64,000 bases of DNA from Ilyobacter polytropus (GCA_003246855.1 QKCP01000025.1:34959-98958); one strand, 5' to 3'; positions 6,651 to 63,709 are shown, numbered from the stretch's first letter. Notes: generated from the letters alone by a model not told the origin. A program made the numbers and translations.

Positions 6651-8814
6651 ACAATTCGTTAAATATATCGTCTACTTCTAAGTTTTTCTCGTTTTGCTGA
6701 ATATCCTCTGTCCTATCTTCTAACTCATTTTCTAACTCATTTTCAAGATCATCTGCGCCATCTTCAGCATCCCTTTTAAAAAACTTGTCCAGTCCCATTT
6801 TAAACTTGGATGAGTTTTCTACAGGTTCATATCCTCTTTCGAAAAGAGCCCACCTCTTATTAGGAGAACTTTCATCCGCCAATAGCCCATTTTTAGAGTC
6901 TATCAGCTTATACACAAGTTCACCATTTTTAACAGCATCATCTAAAAACTCAAATTTTCCAGGTGTGTATACTCCTCTGTACACCATATTTTGGTAGTAA
7001 GCCCCCCAAAGTGGTGCAGCTACTCCTCCTCCAGTAAATCCTTTCCCAGTAGCACGGTTATCGTCGTATCCAAGGTACAATACTGTTACAAGTTCAGGGG
7101 TTATGCCTGCAAACCACGCTGATCTACCCTCATTTGTAGTACCTGTTTTACCACCTTGAGCTATGCCCTCACCATCAATACCCTTTACCCTTGCACCCCT
7201 ACCGGAACCGTTATTAACTACATTTTCAAGCATATGTACAATAAGGGCCACTTTATTTGTGTCAAATACCTTCTCTTTTTCTATTTCGTTTTCATATATT
7301 ACTCTGCCATCTCTGTCCTCTATCTTAGTTATGAAGATAGGCTTTACGCTGTACCCGCCGTTTGAAAAAGGCAGGTAGGCTTTTGCAAGTTCAAATGGGC
7401 TTGTGCTCATTGTACCCAGTGCGGCACTAAGGTCATCCGGTATATCTGATTCTATTCCGGCTTCCCTTGCTGTTTTTATGACATTTTTTATACCTATTTT
7501 TTGCAGAAGTTTTATCGCTATGATGTTGACGGATTTTTCCATCCCTTCCAGAATAGTCATATTCCCCTCAAAAGTTTCACTGTAGTTTTGAGGTTCCCAA
7601 CTTCCAAACTTTACCTCGGAATCTTCTAGGACCTCATTCATTTGGTACCCCTTATTCAGAGCCGTAAAGTATACAAACGGCTTGAAGGCCGATCCAGGCT
7701 GTCTCTTTGACATGGTAGCCCTGTTAAAGTTTCCGCTGGTAAAATCCTTCCCGCCTATTATACTTTTAACATAACCGTTGCTGGAATCTATTGTCACCAT
7801 TCCGGCTTGCATATCCTTAGTGTTTTGCAGGTAGGAGTAGCCTTTAAAGGTTTCCTCAGCCAATTTTTGCATCTTCAGATCCAAGGTGGTGTATATCTTC
7901 ATCCCGCCTTCGTAGATCTCTTCTTCACTGTACATTTTGAAAAGCTCTGCACTCACTATACTTGTGAAGTCAGGTGCCTTATACTCTTTATTCGTATTCT
8001 CGGTATTCACCACTATTGTTTTAGGGGATATCTTTTGCCCCCTTTTAAGGTCGCTGTCTAAAACAAATTCATAGCTCATAGCATCTTCATATTCATCTTT
8101 TTCTATGAAACCAAACTTACGCATCTGCTTTAACACCAGGTGTCCACGGTCAACTGCATTTTTCAGGTTGGTTTTCGGGTTATACTTATTCGGCCTGTTT
8201 GGCATACCGGCAAGCACCGCTGATTCTGCCAGGGTAAGCTTGCTTACATCTTTTTTGAAAAAAATTCTGGCGGCGGTTTTTATTCCGTAAGCCCCGGAAC
8301 CAAAATATATCTCGTTTAAGTACTTATTAAGAATTTCATCTTTTGTATATTTCTTTTCTATCTCAAGAGTTATTATAGCTTCTTTTACCTTTCTAAGCAC
8401 GCTTTTTTCGTGGGTTAGGAAAGCATTTTTTGCAAGCTGCTGTGTTATGGTGCTTCCGCCCTGGGCTTTCCTCATTGTAGCTATATTTACCATCATGGCC
8501 TTGGTAAATCTTATAGGATCTATCCCGAAGTGTTTTCTAAACCTTTTGTCTTCTATGGCTAAAAAAGCATTCTGAGTGTACACAGGTATCTCGTCAACCC
8601 CAGCAAGCTCTCTTCTCTCCCTATATATCATATCAACTACGTCGCCGTTGCTATCGTAAATTATGCTAGGGACAGCTGGATTATAATCTTCAACTAGGTT
8701 GCTTATATCTGGTAGCCCCTTGTATGCCTTGACTATTAAATAGCTCGACATTCCAACTACTAAGATTGTTAAAATTAACCCTGTAAATAAAACTGTTCTC
8801 AAAAACTTCTTCAT
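6646..8814 (-). CDS. Penicillin-binding protein 1A-type transglycosylase/transpeptidase
   Basis: GT51 motifs [12 protein letters not shown] and [16 protein letters not shown]. Transpeptidase [30 protein letters not shown]. Confidence 0.93.
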
Positions 8815-9869
8815 TCTTTACTACTCCCTTTGATACTTTTTGATTTCTGCCTAAGTTGGCCACAGGCTCCGCCTATGTCGCTGCCTTTTTCTCGCCTTAT
8901 TGTAACATTTACTTTTCTTACATCCTTTAGATGGCTGTAGAACCTGTCTATTTTCTTTTCACTTGGTCTATCGAACTCGCTACCCTCAACTGAGTTATAT
9001 GGTATAAGGTTTAATACATGGTCGAATTCGTGCATAAAATCTGCCAAAACTTCTGCATCCCACTGGCTGACATTAAAATCCTTTATTAGTATGTACTCAA
9101 AGCTTATTCTCCTGTTTGTTACTTTTTGGTACTCTTTTAAAGTTGTGTAAAGGTCCTCTAATGGATATTTTTTATTTATCGGTATAAGATGATTCCTTTT
9201 CTCATCTGTTATAGCGTGCAGAGATATTGCTAACTCTACAGGCAGTTTCTCTTCCATCAGAGCCTCTATTCCAGGTATCACTCCCGAAGTTGATACTGTT
9301 ATTCTCCTCATAGATATGTTCTGCCCTTTTTCGTCAGAGAGTATCTTTATGCTTTTTATGAGGTTTGACATGTTTAAAAGCGGTTCGCCCATACCCATAA
9401 ATACTATGTTATTTACTTTCTCTCCTTTTTTTAGGATCCTTCTGCTTATTGTATAGACCTGGTTCAATATTTCATTTACATTTAAGTTTCTCTCAAAACC
9501 ATCCTGACCTGTTGCACAAAATACGCACTTTACAGGACATCCAACCTGTGTTGATATGCATAGTGTATTCCTATCCCTGTGCTTTAGCAGAACAGTCTCG
9601 ATAGTGTGCCCGTCCTCTAGACCGAATAAAAACTTTTCAGTCCCGTCCTGCTTAGACACCTGGTGCTTTAATATGTTCAAGTACGGTATGTAGCTTTTCT
9701 CTTTCAAGATATCTCTGTGCGTTTTGGATATGTTTGTCATATCGTCTATATTCCTTATCATTTTTTCATGCAGCCAAGCATACACCTGCTTTGAGTTGAA
9801 TTTTTTCATGCCAAATTCAACCAAAAATGATTCCAATTCGCTGTAGTTCAAATTAAGTAAATTTATCAT
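8811..9869 (-). CDS. rlmN: 23S rRNA (adenine2503-C2)-methyltransferase
   Basis: Radical [31 protein letters not shown]-terminal [11 protein letters not shown]. Confidence 0.95.
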
Positions 9870-9954
9870 ATTTAATCCTCCTGTTTCCGATTTTCATTCC
9901 CCTAATTCTATCATAAAATTCAAAATCTTACAAGCTGGCCTATTTAAAATTTAA

Positions 9955-9987
9955 TTGTTGAAACCCAGGCGGAAACTATAGTAAAAT
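9955..9987 (+). promoter_or_regulatory. Possible promoter of the PatB/MalY-type gene
   Basis: TTGTTG (9955-9960), then TATAGT (9977-9982), spacer 16. Confidence 0.35.
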
Positions 9988-10071
9988 TAATATAAACGCT
10001 GCTCTGCCTTTGGATGGTTCCACCGCAAGCTTATTGTTCGCAAATTAGATTAACTTATGAGGAGGTTATTA

Positions 10072-11259
10072 ATGGTTGTTGATTTTGATAAAATCGTAAA
10101 TAGAATAGGTACCAATGCAACAAAACTTGAATTTTTAGAGGAGTATTTCGGGCAGGAAGGCCTCATCCCGCTTTGGGTGGCAGACATGGATTTCGAAAGC
10201 CCAGAGGAGATAAAAAAAGCTGTGGTATCAAGAGCTGAACACGGAGTATACGGGTATACGATGCACGACGATGCCTACTACAACTCTATTATTAACTGGA
10301 ACTTGAGAAGAAATGGGTGGCGGGTAGAAAAGGATTGGATTTTACCTTCTCTTGGCGTAGTTACTTCCATAGCTTTCATAATAAACTCACTAACTTCTGA
10401 AGGGGATGAGATAATTGTACAGACACCGGTATACTACCCGTTTTTTAAAACCATCCAGTCTCTCGGAAGAAAAGTGGTGTACAACCCTCTAAAATATAAA
10501 AACGGGAAGTACTCTATGGATTATGAAGACCTGAAGAATAAGATCAATCCTCGTACAAGGCTAATGGTTCTCTGCAGCCCGCACAACCCTGTTGGGAGGG
10601 TATGGACTAAACAGGAGCTGGAGAAATTAGCAACCATCTGCATAGATAACGGGATTTTGATTATATCCGACGAGATCCATTCCGACCTCATATACCAAGG
10701 CTACGTTCACACACCACTTGCGGGGATATCAAACAAGATATCAGAGTCTACTATAACTCTTATGTCACCTAGCAAAACCTTCAACCTAGCTGGTTTTTTT
10801 ACCTCATATATACTTGTTCAAAATGAGCAGATAAGAAAAAAAATCAAAAACGCTCTTAACAGTTTTTCAATACATCAAAATATTTTCGGTATCTCTGCTT
10901 TAAACGCCGCATACTCCAACTGCGAATACTGGCTGGAAGAGCTCATTGACTACATAAATAACAACAAACTGTATGTACAGAACTTTTTAGAAAAACACAT
11001 GCCGGATATTAGGCTTGTAGAGCCAGAAGGAACTTATCTTTTATGGATTGATTTCAATGGATTAAATTTAAAGAAAGAAGATCTTGATAATCTGATTTTA
11101 AAGCGGGCTAAACTTGGTATGAGTGACGGGGCGACTTTTGGAGAAGAGGGGGAGGGGTTCAAGAGAATGAACATCGCTTGCCCGAAGGCTGTTTTAGAAG
11201 AGGCTATGGAGAGGTTGCTTGTTGCGTATAAAACAATGAATAACTGCCCTCAAAAATGA
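10072..11259 (+). CDS. MalY/PatB family aminotransferase (C-S beta-lyase type)
   Basis: IPLWVADMDFESPEEI, CSPHNPVGRVW, SDEIHSDL, SPSKTFNLAG. RBS gaggagg precedes ATG 10072, so the 10057 start is unlikely. Confidence 0.9.
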   Translation: MVVDFDKIVNRIGTNATKLEFLEEYFGQEGLIPLWVADMDFESPEEIKKAVVSRAEHGVYGYTMHDDAYYNSIINWNLRRNGWRVEKDWILPSLGVVTSIAFIINSLTSEGDEIIVQTPVYYPFFKTIQSLGRKVVYNPLKYKNGKYSMDYEDLKNKINPRTRLMVLCSPHNPVGRVWTKQELEKLATICIDNGILIISDEIHSDLIYQGYVHTPLAGISNKISESTITLMSPSKTFNLAGFFTSYILVQNEQIRKKIKNALNSFSIHQNIFGISALNAAYSNCEYWLEELIDYINNNKLYVQNFLEKHMPDIRLVEPEGTYLLWIDFNGLNLKKEDLDNLILKRAKLGMSDGATFGEEGEGFKRMNIACPKAVLEEAMERLLVAYKTMNNCPQK

Positions 11260-11368
11260 TTTTTTAAATAATGACTACTTTTAATTTAAAATTAATCCTT
11301 TAAGCGTAATATAATATATATGCATGTTTTTATTTGTGCTTGACGTCTCCAAGAAGGGAGGGATTATT

Positions 11369-12360
11369 TTGAAAAAATATTAATCGGATTATTTGTACTG
11401 TCCGTAGTGGTCACTGCCCAAATGCCCAGTGATTTCGACATAACTCTAAAAGCCGGACTTGATATCGAACCAGAATACAGCTCTTTTGTTATAAGCGAAC
11501 AAGAGGGCTCTGAAGAAGTAAAATATGAGTTAATCCGTGAGGATTCCAGTAAAAATGGATTTGAGGTATCATTAGAGGTTACAACTCCTATATATTCTAA
11601 CTTTGATTTTGGATTTGGTATAGCTTATCAAAGGCATGGGAAACTAGTTAGTGCAGATAAAGAATTTAGCGGTTATACGTCTTCTAACGTAGATGGCTAT
11701 ATAGAAATTGAAAATGAGGGTTCCACTATTTATGAATACTATAGCTATTATGTACAAATCCCCTATGATTTAGGAATTCAACAACTACTCGAAGAGGATA
11801 CCCCTTATGACTCATTACCACTCTATCTGACTGCTAGATACAATTTTATGAGCTACAAAAATATAAAGTTTTACCTAAAGGGAAATTTTGGATATTCACT
11901 CAATGTTAACGAACCAGACCGTTTAACTCTTGACCCAAATGCTGAATTTGAAGAGTATATTAACGATGCTTCTGAACTCATTGGTTTAGACTTAGCTGAA
12001 TACCTAGCTGATTCAACGGGGATCCCTTTAAGTGATGTAATTGCATCTCCAGAATATTCAGCAGAATTAGAAAAAATTAGGGCTGGCGTGGCAGACGATA
12101 TATCTCGTGGTTTCTCAAAATATGTAGATGTTGATGTAGAGAACGGATTATATTGGGGTGCGGGTTTTGGATTTGAATATAGTAACTGGATTGCAGAACT
12201 TATGTACCAAGTAAACTATGCTGAAGTAGAATTTACAGTCAATCAGCCAATTGATCCAGATTTAGGTGTAGATATAGATGTGACAAGAAATTTCAAAGAT
12301 GATTTAGACTACTCTAGAGTTACGCTATCACTTGGTTACACATTTAACTTAAGTTACTAA
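11369..12360 (+). CDS. Outer-membrane beta-barrel-like protein; start and signal peptide offset by an apparent -1 frameshift at an A6 tract
   Basis: Body frame 11407-12360 has alternating beta-strand pattern, ending SRVTLSLGYTFNLSY. Upstream, that frame reads KILIGLFVLSVVVTAQ (signal-peptide-like). AAGGGAGGG RBS plus TTG at 11369 is one base out of frame. Confidence 0.65.
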
Positions 12361-56473: not shown

Positions 56474-58321
56474 CTATTTTTCAACCATTTTTCTCAGCAA
56501 AACCCTAGTGTTTCCAGGGTGTGACAGTTTCAGGTAAGTCTCGTAAAACTTCTCATACTTTTCTTTTTTTACAATCCCGTTTCTGTAATTTATCACATCG
56601 TTTATCATTAAATTTCCGTTTAAAACCTCTACTTTTCTTTGCACGCCAAACACTTTACCATGATACTTTAGGGTCTTTGGCATCAAGAGAAACTGGTAAT
56701 TTTCTGGGCACTTTATCTCGTACTGCCTTCTAAATTTAAAATCCTCTGTGCTTTCAAAATCAAGCTCCCTCTCTCCTGGATCAAGTTCCAAAATATATGG
56801 CGCCAAAGATGCATCTAGGTCGAAATACATGAACTCGCCGTCTGTAGCTGCATAGTTTTCCTGTATGTAATCGTAGGATATAGTAGTGTTTTCTCCTAAT
56901 TCTATTTTTAAATCACTGGTCGGTCTTGCAAAAATGGATATGGCGCTCATTAGCTTTTCATAATCCTTTTTCAAGTCGTATTCAGTCATATACTTGTATT
57001 TTGACCTTATAAGGCTTGCCATGCCGCCGCTGTAATTATTTTCTTTATGTACTGCAGCGTTCCCGTCTTGGTCTATTTTAACTGAATAAAAGATGTCCCT
57101 GGTATTTTTTGTTTTGCAGTTTATCTTTTCAAAACGTACCTTTTCGCCAAGAATCATAGCTATTTTTTTATCAAACTCACTCTCATCCATATTGTAAAAC
57201 TCGTTTAATATATCCACGTAGTAGACCTCTCCTGTAAGGTTTATCTTGGAAATCAAATAGGAAAATGGAAGTATGTTGCCGTTTTTTAAGTCCCTTTTAA
57301 GGTTGTGCTCTTCATCTCCTGCCACCAGGATGCTGCTCTCTATTCCTAGTCTTTTCATCAACCCGTCAAATATCGTGTATGCTTCTACAGGGGTACCGTA
57401 CCCGCTGTCTATTATCTCAGAAAAGTCCCTCGGTTGGAACTTGAATAAATCATCCTGTGGCATATATAGGAACTCCTCAGAAAAATAGCGTTTTATACGA
57501 TTTAAACTCTCCTGCTCGTTCTTAGAGCCCGCCAGCAGTTTGTCACAAAGATTAACTATAGACTGGTGCTCTGAATTTATATTTTTAAAATATTTGGAGT
57601 ATATAGCTTCGCCGTATTTTTCAACCCCTTTATAAGTACTTATGTATACTGTGGGAAATATTCTTTCAGGAAGAGGCATGCTCTGCTCTGGCTTGTAGGG
57701 TAATATCTCCTTGCTGCTGTATGTAAGTATCCACCTATTATCAGGTTTTTCTTTTGTTTTTTTTAATCCTTTTCCAAAATTACTCTCGGATACTTTTAGT
57801 TCCATGCTTTCGGGGTATTCTATTTTATAGATTTTCTCCATTGCCTTTTCTGTACCAGCAAAAACATAGGAATCAAAGATATCCCTTCCACTGCTGTTTT
57901 CCTTTATAAATTCCAAATGCACAGTATCCCCTACCTCCACGCCTAGGAAAGGGATAAGTAGCATTCTACTTACCGCAAACTCCATCATGCCACTTTCATA
58001 AGGTGAGTCCAATTCTTTTATTACATTTTTTCCAGTTCTCACTATACTGCCATCAGGTTTTTCTGTATATGCATCTACTAGTCTCACTTTTTCATATCTG
58101 CTGTCGTAAAAAACCTTAAATTCTGACAACTCTTTTTTCCCCTTGTAACTAAGTATCTTTTTTTCAACAAGTACTCTTTTTGTGTAGGTTTTATCAGGCT
58201 TTATTGTAAGTCCTGTATACTCTTTAGTCGTTAGGTAATCTGCAGTATCACCTGCAAAAACATAAATGCACAAGATAAGCTGCAGTATTATAATTCTGAT
58301 AAAATATCTCAACTCAATCAC
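56474..58321 (-). CDS. DUF3857/transglutaminase-like protein, predicted catalytically inactive paralogue
   Basis: DUF3857-like N-terminus after a signal peptide. TGase region reads SGYGTPVEAYTIF (Cys replaced) and SYLISKINLTGEVYYVD (His position is Tyr). Confidence 0.68.
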   Translation of the reverse strand: MIELRYFIRIIILQLILCIYVFAGDTADYLTTKEYTGLTIKPDKTYTKRVLVEKKILSYKGKKELSEFKVFYDSRYEKVRLVDAYTEKPDGSIVRTGKNVIKELDSPYESGMMEFAVSRMLLIPFLGVEVGDTVHLEFIKENSSGRDIFDSYVFAGTEKAMEKIYKIEYPESMELKVSESNFGKGLKKTKEKPDNRWILTYSSKEILPYKPEQSMPLPERIFPTVYISTYKGVEKYGEAIYSKYFKNINSEHQSIVNLCDKLLAGSKNEQESLNRIKRYFSEEFLYMPQDDLFKFQPRDFSEIIDSGYGTPVEAYTIFDGLMKRLGIESSILVAGDEEHNLKRDLKNGNILPFSYLISKINLTGEVYYVDILNEFYNMDESEFDKKIAMILGEKVRFEKINCKTKNTRDIFYSVKIDQDGNAAVHKENNYSGGMASLIRSKYKYMTEYDLKKDYEKLMSAISIFARPTSDLKIELGENTTISYDYIQENYAATDGEFMYFDLDASLAPYILELDPGERELDFESTEDFKFRRQYEIKCPENYQFLLMPKTLKYHGKVFGVQRKVEVLNGNLMINDVINYRNGIVKKEKYEKFYETYLKLSHPGNTRVLLRKMVEK

Positions 58322-60237
58322 CGCTTTTTCACTATTATATATTTTTTATCGTAATTTTCAATATCCCCCAATACAGCTCTTATGGCGTAATAGTCCTCTA
58401 TACTGTACTCTAATTTTTTTAGACTAAGATTTTTTCTAAAACTCAGCCCATCTTTTGATTCTTTGTATGAAGCTATAAAGTCAAACGAATCGCTGTTCCT
58501 CCTAACATTAGGCGGTAAATTTAAGAATTCCACTCCGTCTATTGCAATGTCCACCTCTTCCTTAACTGAAACTGTTGAGTCCACGATCAGTGGATAGTTT
58601 CTCTCTGAAAGGCTAAACTCTGAAAGAATCCAGTTATGCATCCCAAATACATCCGAAAGCTGCGGCACTCTAAACATTTTATACTCTTCACCAACCACAA
58701 AATCCTCTATGTTATATTGTAAATTTATCTCCATCTTGTCATCTTTGAAGAGGTTTTCGGGGCTTATACTGAAAGATATCAGCTCTGTGTTTGCACTCAA
58801 ACTCTTCAGTAGACTTTTGAAAAATTTCTCTCTTTCGTCATGTTTCAAGCCTATTAAATATTTCCTGTATGCATTGTCGTTTATGCCCTGGAAAATAAGC
58901 CTGCTTTTAATCATAAACTTTCCATCGCTGTAATTAACCTGACTTTTTATGAATAGCTCATTTGATGAAGGTTTTGAAATGGAGTTGAATTTCAAAGTAT
59001 CTCCACCTTTTTTCGCAATTAAATAAGGCTTGCCGTCTAGATACTCTGGCATAAGGGTTTTGGTAGTTTCATCAGTAGGGTCCATTAATATGAGCTTGCC
59101 TTCGAGCTCTACACTTGCAATAGCATGGTTGAAAAAATTGTTTGGGAAATCTGCTTCCATCTGCCTGCTGGCATTCATCAACACCATGTTGGAATTATAG
59201 CCCAAGCTCCTCAGCATGGACACAATAAGAGCAGCCTTATCCCTGCATACGCCTGTCATAGTCTGTAGTGTGTAGTCGGAGTTGTGCGGCTCGAGGCCAG
59301 GCCTGTTATCCTCCTGGTTGATTCCCATATATCTAACATTCCTTGAAACCCAGAAAAATACAGCCTTGATCTTATCTATATCTTCTTGTTGCCCGTTAAT
59401 TATAAGTTCTGCCGCCTTGCTTACTGTGTCGTTCACTACTATTTTTGGCTCTGAGAGCTTATAATACCACTTGGATATCTCTTCCCAAGTGGGTGATGTG
59501 CCTACAGCCCATCTCATAGCTATGTCTATCATATTTGGCATTTGTGGTTCAGCGTTTATCTGCGGTACTTCAAAAACCGTAAACTTTTGCCACTCCTTTT
59601 TCCCAGCCCTGCCAGTTTCCAGGGTATAAGACCCCTGTATGCCGTTGTAAACCTTTGAAGTTCGTAATGGGTTGCTGGATGGTCCTGTTATTGTTGTACT
59701 TGAATAAAGTATGGGATAAAATTCCTGACCGCCTATATAGTCCGTATAGTTTCCGGGCATCCTTGTCTTTTTTGAACTCTCATACTCCTTTATATAAACT
59801 ATATCGCCTACCTTGATATCTGGTATGTTTATTACAATAAGCTTTTTATTCTCGTCATAGATGTTGCTCTCCTGGTCGGAGGGGTTATCCTGAATCTGCA
59901 TGCTGCTTCTAAAATCAAAGTCTAGCTCTTCCCCGTCTCTTATTATCTTTACGTCCACAAATTCTTTATTCGTGTACTCACTGTTGTATGATTCATACAA
60001 CAGTTTACTGTTGTCCCTTCCAAACTGGTCCAATATCTTGAAGTACTCCTCACTGCTCTTCTGGTAGTTCCCATCACTAAAGTACTCTATATCCTCAACT
60101 CTTTTAACTAAAACCCTGTGGGCGTTTGGAAAATTGTTTTTTGTGGCTTTTTCCATCAATTCTTTAAAATTATCTCCTAAAGAAAAAACCGTGATGAAAT
60201 TTATCAAAAAGGTCAAAACAACAAAATACTTTTTCAT
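58318..60237 (-). CDS. DUF3857/transglutaminase-like protein with intact triad
   Basis: Signal peptide, DUF3857-like N-terminus, TGVCRDKAALIVSMLRSLGY, FFNHAIASVELEGKLILMDPTDE. Confidence 0.82.
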   Translation of the reverse strand: MKKYFVVLTFLINFITVFSLGDNFKELMEKATKNNFPNAHRVLVKRVEDIEYFSDGNYQKSSEEYFKILDQFGRDNSKLLYESYNSEYTNKEFVDVKIIRDGEELDFDFRSSMQIQDNPSDQESNIYDENKKLIVINIPDIKVGDIVYIKEYESSKKTRMPGNYTDYIGGQEFYPILYSSTTITGPSSNPLRTSKVYNGIQGSYTLETGRAGKKEWQKFTVFEVPQINAEPQMPNMIDIAMRWAVGTSPTWEEISKWYYKLSEPKIVVNDTVSKAAELIINGQQEDIDKIKAVFFWVSRNVRYMGINQEDNRPGLEPHNSDYTLQTMTGVCRDKAALIVSMLRSLGYNSNMVLMNASRQMEADFPNNFFNHAIASVELEGKLILMDPTDETTKTLMPEYLDGKPYLIAKKGGDTLKFNSISKPSSNELFIKSQVNYSDGKFMIKSRLIFQGINDNAYRKYLIGLKHDEREKFFKSLLKSLSANTELISFSISPENLFKDDKMEINLQYNIEDFVVGEEYKMFRVPQLSDVFGMHNWILSEFSLSERNYPLIVDSTVSVKEEVDIAIDGVEFLNLPPNVRRNSDSFDFIASYKESKDGLSFRKNLSLKKLEYSIEDYYAIRAVLGDIENYDKKYIIVKKR

Positions 60238-60581
60238 AGCCCCCCACCGTCTTTCATAGCCTTTATCTTACTCTTTAGCTCGATATTTTCTCCCTCTAAA
60301 TTTTTGACCCTCATCCTAAGCCTACTGTTTTCCTCAGACAAATTCTTAAGTTCTGCTCCCTTTTTTCTGATGTCATCCTGCAGCCTTTGTATTTTATCTT
60401 TCTGTTCCCACTCTTTTCCCGACAAACTTTTCAGCTTTCTGGCAATTTTTTTATTCTTCTTTTTCTGCTTCTTGTAGTCCTCATATGTTACTTTTTCCCC
60501 TACCTTGAATAAAAATTCAAAGGGCAGTTTTAACAGTTTCATTATGTTTAAAATAAGCCAGTTCTTTTTCGATTTACTCAC
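60234..60581 (-). CDS. Small basic coiled-coil protein of unknown function
   Basis: Lys-rich then heptad-like C-terminus RLQDDIRKKGAELKNLSEENSRLRMRVKNLEGENIELKSKIKAM. 4-nt overlap with the next gene. Confidence 0.65.
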   Translation of the reverse strand: MSKSKKNWLILNIMKLLKLPFEFLFKVGEKVTYEDYKKQKKKNKKIARKLKSLSGKEWEQKDKIQRLQDDIRKKGAELKNLSEENSRLRMRVKNLEGENIELKSKIKAMKDGGGL

Positions 60582-60586
60582 CTCAC

Positions 60587-60612
60587 AAAAAAAGGCAGCC
60601 TTGTGAGCTACC
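60587..60612 (-). terminator. Terminator downstream of the monooxygenase-like gene
   Basis: Minus strand GGTAGC-TCACAAG-GCTGCCTTTTTTT. Confidence 0.6.
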
Positions 60613-60613
60613 T

Positions 60614-60901
60614 CTATTTTAAAAATTTATAGATGTTTACATCCTTAGGTTTTGAACACATTTCATCCATAAGAGGAATATATTTTTTGAAATGCGGTGT
60701 CTCGAAATGTTCTAATAGATCTTCGTTATTTTCCCACTCCTCTATAAAGGTGAATATAGTCTCGTCTTCTACATCCCTATACAGCTCGTATTTTACGTAT
60801 TTGGGTTCTTTTCTAGTTTCCTCAACCATTATAGAAGCGTACTCAACGAATTTCTCTACTTCCGATTTTTTTACATAGCATTTTGCAACTGCTGTTATCA
60901 T
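60614..60901 (-). CDS. Antibiotic biosynthesis monooxygenase (ABM/YgiN-like) domain protein
   Basis: ITAVAKCYVKKSEVEKFVEYASIMVEETRKEPKYVKYELYRDVEDETIFTFIEEWENNEDLLEHFETPHFKKY. Confidence 0.88.
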   Translation of the reverse strand: MITAVAKCYVKKSEVEKFVEYASIMVEETRKEPKYVKYELYRDVEDETIFTFIEEWENNEDLLEHFETPHFKKYIPLMDEMCSKPKDVNIYKFLK

Positions 60902-61792: not shown

Positions 61793-63709
61793 ATGAAAAA
61801 AAAATTGATATTAGGACTTTGTGCCTGTACTTTGTTACTAGGAGGATTCAATATGGAAAAAGTTAATGCTATGAACCAGGAAAATAAAAATATAAAAAGG
61901 GTGGATATCGACCAAAAGTACAAGTGGAAACTATCCGATCTCTACCAAAATTGGGATGAATGGGAAAAAGATTATAAAAAGATGGATCAGATGATAAGCG
62001 AGATTGCATCCTTTAAGGGCAAGCTAAGGGATAACCCTGAAACTTTTGCAAAGGCTGTTCTGCTGAATGAAGAGTTTGATATTCTGTCATATAAAGTTTT
62101 CCGTTATCCTCAATTGATGCTTGACTTAAATTCTAAAGACCAATTTGTGGCTTCTAAATTTCAGAAAGTCCAGATACTTTTCAGCAAATTTTCAATCCAA
62201 AATTCTTGGATTGCACCGGAAATTCTCTCCATCCCTATGGAAACTGTAATCGGTTGGATTGATACAAATCCGGATCTAGAGCCGCACAGATTTAGCATTA
62301 TGAACATGTTTAGACTTCAAAAACACGTCTTAAGCGAGGATAAGGAGAAGCTGCTTTCATTTTATTCGCAGTTTTCTTCAAGCCCAAAATCTATATATTC
62401 TCAGCTTTCAACAGCTGATATAAAATTTAACGAAGTAAAATTGTCGAACGATGAAACCATAAAGATAAGCCCTGCAAATTACTCTAGGATATTGGCAACA
62501 AATAGAAATCAAGATGACAGGAAAAAGACCTTCGAAGCTCTTTACTCAGTATACCAGGACTACCAGAATACATATGCTTCCATCTATAATGCCAGCGTTC
62601 AAGCAGATTGGGCGTCATCTCAAGCGAGAAACTATACTTCCTCTCTTGAAGCAGCCTTAGAGGGAGACAACATACCTACAGAGGTTTACAGAAACCTTGT
62701 GCAGACAGTCGGCGAAAACACAGCCCCACTTAAAAGATATGCAAGGCTCCGTAAAAAGATACTCGGCCTTGAAAAATACCACGTTTATGATGGATCTGTT
62801 GCTATCGTGGATTTTGATAAAAAATACAGCTATGATGACGTCACAAAATGGATCTTAGAGTCTACTGAGCCCCTAGGGGGAGAATACCAGGAAAAACTGA
62901 AAAATGCCCTTAATGGTAAATGGATCGATGTATACGAAACAGAAGGTAAAAGAAGCGGAGCATATTCTGCTGGAGTTTATGGCGTACATCCTTATATGCT
63001 TCTAAACTACAACGAGACATTAGACTCTGTTTTTACCCTTGCACACGAACTTGGGCACACCATGCATACCATGCTTTCTAGCGAGGCTCAGCCTTTCGCT
63101 ACACATGAGTATACTATTTTTATCGCAGAGGTGGCTTCTACTTTTAACGAGAGACTGCTCTTAGACTATCTCTTAAATAGAACAACGGATCCAAAAGAGA
63201 GGATAGCTCTGTTGCAGCAAGAGATAAGAAATCTTACAGGTACCTTCTACTTCCAGGCACTTTTAGCAGATTTTGAGCTTCAAGTTCATGAACTTGCCGA
63301 AAAAGGAGAAGCTATAACTTCTGAGGTGCTAGGAGATACAATGTCAGCAATATATGATAAATACTACGGAGATTCCGTTGAAAAAGAGGATCTACTTCGT
63401 GTGGTATGGGCTAGAGTTCCCCATTTTTTCAACTCACCATTTTACGTTTATCAATATGCTACCTGCTTTGTTTCCTCAGCTGTTTTATACGATAAAATAA
63501 CCAATCCAGAAAACAGCAAGGCAGAAAGAGAGGAAGCCCTCAAAAAATACATATCACTTCTGAAATCAGGCGGAAACGACTACCCTATGGAGCAGCTTAA
63601 AAAAGCGGGGGTAGACCTAACTCAAAAAGAAGTCACTCTAGCCCTTACAAAACAGCTAGACATTATGCTGGATCTTTTGGAAAAAGAGATTGAAAATTTA
63701 GAAAAATAG
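61793..63709 (+). CDS. pepF: Oligoendopeptidase F (M3B) with N-terminal signal sequence
   Basis: MKKKLILGLCACTLLLGGFNMEKVNAM leader. YKWKLSDLYQNWDEWEKD. FTLAHELGHTMHTMLS. Confidence 0.9.
   Translation: MKKKLILGLCACTLLLGGFNMEKVNAMNQENKNIKRVDIDQKYKWKLSDLYQNWDEWEKDYKKMDQMISEIASFKGKLRDNPETFAKAVLLNEEFDILSYKVFRYPQLMLDLNSKDQFVASKFQKVQILFSKFSIQNSWIAPEILSIPMETVIGWIDTNPDLEPHRFSIMNMFRLQKHVLSEDKEKLLSFYSQFSSSPKSIYSQLSTADIKFNEVKLSNDETIKISPANYSRILATNRNQDDRKKTFEALYSVYQDYQNTYASIYNASVQADWASSQARNYTSSLEAALEGDNIPTEVYRNLVQTVGENTAPLKRYARLRKKILGLEKYHVYDGSVAIVDFDKKYSYDDVTKWILESTEPLGGEYQEKLKNALNGKWIDVYETEGKRSGAYSAGVYGVHPYMLLNYNETLDSVFTLAHELGHTMHTMLSSEAQPFATHEYTIFIAEVASTFNERLLLDYLLNRTTDPKERIALLQQEIRNLTGTFYFQALLADFELQVHELAEKGEAITSEVLGDTMSAIYDKYYGDSVEKEDLLRVVWARVPHFFNSPFYVYQYATCFVSSAVLYDKITNPENSKAEREEALKKYISLLKSGGNDYPMEQLKKAGVDLTQKEVTLALTKQLDIMLDLLEKEIENLEK

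Follow-up and report, generated by a model that had tools for sequence, protein, structure and literature searches.

The window, a 64,000-nucleotide stretch of DNA from Ilyobacter polytropus, carries on its minus strand two adjacent genes, here called A and B, for related proteins that are predicted to be exported. Gene A (58318-60237) encodes a DUF3857-transglutaminase-like protein of 639 residues with an intact catalytic triad. Gene B (56474-58321) encodes a DUF3857-containing paralogue of 615 residues that has lost the catalytic cysteine, a pseudoenzyme. The stop codon of A overlaps the GTG start codon of B by 4 nt (58318-58321), and judged from their sequence the two genes are arranged as one putative transcription unit. 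A third minus-strand ORF (60234-60581), encoding a coiled-coil protein of 115 residues, overlaps A by 4 nt at the other end (60234-60237). A preliminary description of the locus had the three ORFs, their coordinates and the 4-nt overlaps at both junctions right. The signal sequences of A and B were judged by eye only. The B proteins of Psychrilyobacter-type relatives have in addition a lipobox-like FxGC. No further DUF3857 gene was found in the genome (2.5 Mb, 167 contigs).

Pfam searches identified DUF3857 (PF12969; cut-off 24.6 bits) in both proteins, at residues 55-215 of A (59593-60075; 53.5 bits, E 4e-14) and residues 42-208 of B (57698-58198; 73.6 bits, E 2.6e-20). Transglut_core was found at residues 276-387 of A (59077-59412; 42 bits against a cut-off of 23, E 1.2e-10); the Pfam search gave no Transglut_core match in B, so that A has both domains and B has DUF3857 only. 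DUF3858 (PF12970) remained below its cut-off of 27 in both (A, 16.4 bits; B, 13.6 bits). A thus has the same domain order, DUF3857-Transglut_core plus a weak DUF3858-like end, as the proteins of these Pfam families, and B has DUF3857 plus the weak DUF3858-like end. The families were however defined on single proteins, and the pairing of an active with a dead member is in none of the definitions examined. The identity between A and B is so low that BLASTP misses the relation (E 0.4). Pfam and a multiple alignment, in which B can be aligned to A over its full length, show that they are paralogues.

The alignment confirmed the Cys/His/Asp set proposed for A in the preliminary description. The triad consists of Cys331 in GVCRDKA (codon 59245-59247), His371 in FNHAIA (the NHAIAS motif; 59125-59127) and Asp386 in LMDPTDE (59080-59082), and together with the Transglut_core match it places A in the transglutaminase-like superfamily. 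The corresponding residues of B are Pro311 in GYGTPVEA (57389-57391), Tyr355 (57257-57259) and Asp370 (57212-57214), the last being kept in the window protein and lost in most relatives. B therefore lacks both the Cys and the His of an active enzyme. The two proteins share a glycine (G329 of A, G309 of B), and therefore Cys331 pairs with Pro311; Asp333 of A aligns with Glu313 of B. The preliminary reading of B as a dead paralogue, with Cys lost, His replaced by Tyr and Asp kept, holds, except that its register was two residues off and put Gly309 at the cysteine position. That register, in which GVCRDKA was set against GYGTPVEA with Cys facing Gly, is ruled out by the alignment and by the helix starts in the structure models.

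An AF2 model of B (pLDDT 86.6, pTM 0.78) has its best fold match, over most of its length, in PDB 3kd4 (TM 0.62/0.74), and a weaker one in 3isr, a putative cysteine protease. The match to 3kd4 and the alignment to A place B, by fold, in the transglutaminase-like superfamily. The helix at the catalytic site starts at residue 311 in the B model (311-324). In a model of a natural A-B fusion protein, the equivalent helix of the A half (292-305) starts at the Cys and that of the B half (905-918) starts two residues after Gly 903. These helix starts settle the Pro311 register. A restored Cys-His-Asp triad in B was sought in the alignment and in the models and was absent. The fusion model, made from a shallow alignment of 15 rows, has a pLDDT of 83.5 for the good halves and a pTM of 0.51, and therefore does not place the halves confidently with respect to each other. 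When the models of B and of the protein at locus L038 were searched with Foldseek, they also resembled ribophorin I/Ost1 of the oligosaccharyltransferase and M1 aminopeptidases (E 1e-4 to 1e-9, low TM-scores), a likeness that probably stems from the DUF3857 part.

3kd4 was also the only PDB sequence match of a B profile (E 3e-23), and it is the only crystal structure found. It is a structural-genomics entry for BDI_1141 of Parabacteroides distasonis, named "putative protease", and has been given as one of the transglutaminase-like protease fold matches (PMC4866520). Despite the protease label, its site carries the dead motif SAYGTPLEI as in B, and in the alignment its Cys position is not a Cys. 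The solved structure therefore belongs to the dead (B) type, and by sequence, fold and missing Cys the window's B is a dead DUF3857 protein of the 3kd4 type. The records examined make no mention of an active partner for 3kd4. The genes of its nearest relatives in our sample (61% identity) have directly upstream an A gene with the Cys-His-Asp set. The structure of 3kd4 was determined with no A protein present, so B is able to fold without A.

The coiled-coil ORF is a genuine open reading frame. It sits right after a terminator-like hairpin (60591-60615, minus strand), which lies between an ABM-domain gene (60614-60901) and the coiled-coil ORF, immediately before the GTG start codon of the latter. 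The hairpin comes from a pattern scan that found 5 such elements where 3.4 were expected, and is thus a weak call. The preliminary description had counted the coiled-coil protein as a member of the module. This did not hold up in relatives: at the Fusobacteriota loci with a readable upstream side (L014-L017 and L033), no coiled-coil counterpart overlaps A or lies adjacent upstream of it among ORFs of at least 90-100 residues. Because the pair has no such counterpart next to it, the coiled-coil ORF is probably not part of the conserved A-B module, and a three-gene module was rejected.

A DUF3857 search of 98 Fusobacteriota genomes gave eight over the Pfam cut-off. Besides the window's own genome, these comprise five from a single genus (Psychrilyobacter-type, contig L049 being Psychrilyobacter) and one from each of two further families. 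Far from being absent in related genomes, the pairing was found in all eight. A and B are adjacent and in the order A-B in seven; in the eighth a contig end cuts the pair, leaving B and the tail of A. Among the Psychrilyobacter-type genomes A has a dN/dS of 0.11-0.18 and B one of 0.17-0.22, so that B is evolving under purifying selection.

When genome contigs were searched with the A alignment as query, 80 loci were obtained, which extended the pair to other phyla. A-B tandems are present in Bacteroidota (L040, L041 and L048) and in one Desulfobacterales MAG (L042). In a Victivallales, an Opitutaceae and several rumen genomes the two are joined in single proteins of about 1250-1300 residues, the A half followed by the B half. 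Two groups were then surveyed with extended profiles. The 198 Bacteroidales genomes yielded 56 A genes scoring more than about 240 bits; B follows immediately downstream on the same strand in 50 cases, lies on a different contig in four, and gave no match in two. Among 195 genomes of the Verrucomicrobiota type, the phylum of the Victivallales genome, 72 of the 74 A copies above 400 bits lie in open frames of 1196-1507 residues; the exceptions are an A on a 679-residue frame with B on another contig and a frame with stops. Forty of the 72 fusions were read, and all 40 have A first and B as the C-terminal half. The order A then B is invariant across tandems and fusions, and about half of the genomes sampled from Bacteroidales and from the Verrucomicrobiota type contain relatives. 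The enzyme/pseudoenzyme pair of the preliminary description thus has strong support: it is conserved across phyla in A-then-B order and fused in one phylum, and its B member is under selection without the Cys.

The Cys-His-Asp set is present in all 79 A copies at the loci read. Cys is present in none of the 78 B copies in which the site could be aligned; the position is occupied by Ser (25), Asn (11), Lys (7), Ala (6) and ten other residues, 14 types in all. The flanking positions are constant in the same 78 copies, with Gly (72) or Ala (6) two residues before and Asp (53) or Glu (25) two residues after. The His and Asp positions of B drift among the copies. More distant active-type relatives have the Cys-His-Asp set in 67 of 67 cases, and therefore the loss of Cys in B is derived. 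In a tree of 77 pairs all A proteins group in one clade and all B proteins in another (support 0.98). The A and B trees have correlated distance matrices, with r 0.94 overall, 0.83 within the fusions and 0.76 within the Bacteroidales tandems, against permutation maxima of 0.16 (overall) to 0.35. These comparisons point to co-inheritance of A and B from one presumed old duplication. Such a mirror-tree correlation is also expected from plain co-inheritance of neighbours and is by itself no proof of contact.

A similar arrangement is seen in Flavobacteriia, Chitinophagia and relatives (loci L051-L115). In 57 of these 66 loci an active GDCK[DG] enzyme is followed at once by a DUF3857-like protein of 650-755 residues without conserved catalytic Cys or His (e.g., L058:7304-9568 and L065:7109-9076). 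Six of the nine loci without such a partner are on short or truncated contigs. These pairs are like A-B in having an active enzyme and then a dead-type DUF3857-like protein. The partners are however far diverged from B (profile-profile E 2e-12), and may stem from the same or from a second duplication (support 0.32). No partner was detected at L050 and L057. A Mucilaginibacter locus (L053) has two dead-type partners in a row (7177-9420 and 9440-11674) behind one active enzyme. Other DUF3857 transglutaminases have no dead partner. In Bacteroidales proteins of about 1250 residues (L201:1541-5284, L202:2429-5998 and L203:2326-6072) the C-terminal half is an active GDCKD DUF3857-transglutaminase and the N-terminal half is unrelated, with no match to any profile used. 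Verrucomicrobiota-type proteins of about 2000 residues (L204:4594-8001) carry an active GDCKD DUF3857-transglutaminase near the N-terminus.

Across the groups compared, no conserved neighbour genes hinting at a substrate or function were found. Neighbours named by eye include recF and gyrB look-alikes in the Psychrilyobacter type, menaquinone genes or nadA/pheT in some Bacteroidales, and a murJ-like gene upstream of the fusions L043 and L044. An M3/PepF-like oligoendopeptidase gene is present near the pair in the window (61793-63709, plus strand) and at L014 (10787-12553) and L015 (548-2314). Its orientation and the intervening genes differ between the window and the Psychrilyobacter type, and the proximity may be due to chance. 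An anti-phage defence system was considered and rejected, there being no match to PADLOC models.

Recurrence of the active-plus-dead couple in distant diderm groups, as neighbours or in one chain, suggests a role for the dead copy as a working subunit. We consider it fairly probable that A and B make up a secreted two-subunit enzyme of diderm bacteria in which the dead subunit is obligatory. A would be the catalytic subunit, a cysteine transglutaminase- or protease-like enzyme acting through Cys331-His371-Asp386. B would be an ancient full-length duplicate that lost the nucleophile but retained the fold and is co-produced with A from the overlapping gene. Most likely it would bind A and position the substrate, or stabilise or gate A, and so be needed for the work of A. 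We infer a physical association of A and B, activation rather than inhibition, and export to the periplasm. Our guess for the substrate, an envelope protein or peptide, is based on the signal sequences and on the taxonomic distribution. The role in envelope modification put forward in the preliminary description is likewise conjectural.

The same genomic evidence would also be produced if B opposed A, as a dedicated inhibitor, chaperone or substrate decoy that keeps A silent or folds it. An exported hydrolase-like enzyme co-made with a bound dead copy suits inhibition, as does a B encoded after A. A removable inhibitor is, however, made less likely by the covalent fusions (72 of 74 cases in one phylum), and B is as large as A with all domains kept, more than an inhibitor needs. 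We regard such an opposing role as rather unlikely. Another arrangement would have B as a separate binding protein of the same pathway, for instance in substrate or product recognition, that never touches A. Adjacency in an operon without a complex is common, 3kd4 was solved alone and the fusion model has no confident interface; the fusion across a whole phylum and the invariant gene order argue against it, and it seems improbable.

Ser is the commonest occupant of the cysteine position in B (25 of 78), as would be expected if B had a different catalysis in the old cleft, such as one with a Ser nucleophile. The position otherwise varies freely among 14 residue types and the His and Asp drift, so that no alternative triad is conserved; Ser as an alternative nucleophile was accordingly discarded, and a different catalysis in B is very unlikely. 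The loss of catalytic residues in the window's B could also be the mark of a decaying duplicate without function. The B clade however spans several phyla, with conserved sequence, dN/dS of about 0.2 and complete reading frames. These exclude a decaying pseudogene, and decay retains hardly any probability.

In enzyme/pseudoenzyme pairs the dead paralogue can serve as a regulatory subunit. In such pairs generally, as here, the inactive paralogue is conserved next to an active relative and retains the fold although the nucleophile is gone. To our knowledge no pair of this kind is known in the bacterial transglutaminase-like superfamily. A literature search on bacterial transglutaminase-like pseudoenzymes or an active/dead pair found nothing; most subscription journals were outside the search, which is thus no proof of novelty. 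With the same coverage, nothing was found on function for DUF3857, DUF3858, 3kd4 or inactive bacterial transglutaminases, DUF3857 being named in one paper and DUF3858 in none. On balance, the DUF3857 transglutaminases of diderms appear to be an undescribed, widespread two-subunit enzyme with an obligatory dead paralogue, in tandem in Fusobacteriota, Bacteroidota and Desulfobacterota and fused in the Verrucomicrobiota type.

The working form of this large and uncharacterised family of exported cysteine enzymes appears to be an active/dead couple. Should this be true, the solved structure of the family is that of the dead half. Assays of single proteins may well fail, and both genes would have to be expressed or deleted together. 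In bacteria of gut, soil and sea the A-B pair provides a defined unit that is open to testing, with a natural fused version for structure work.
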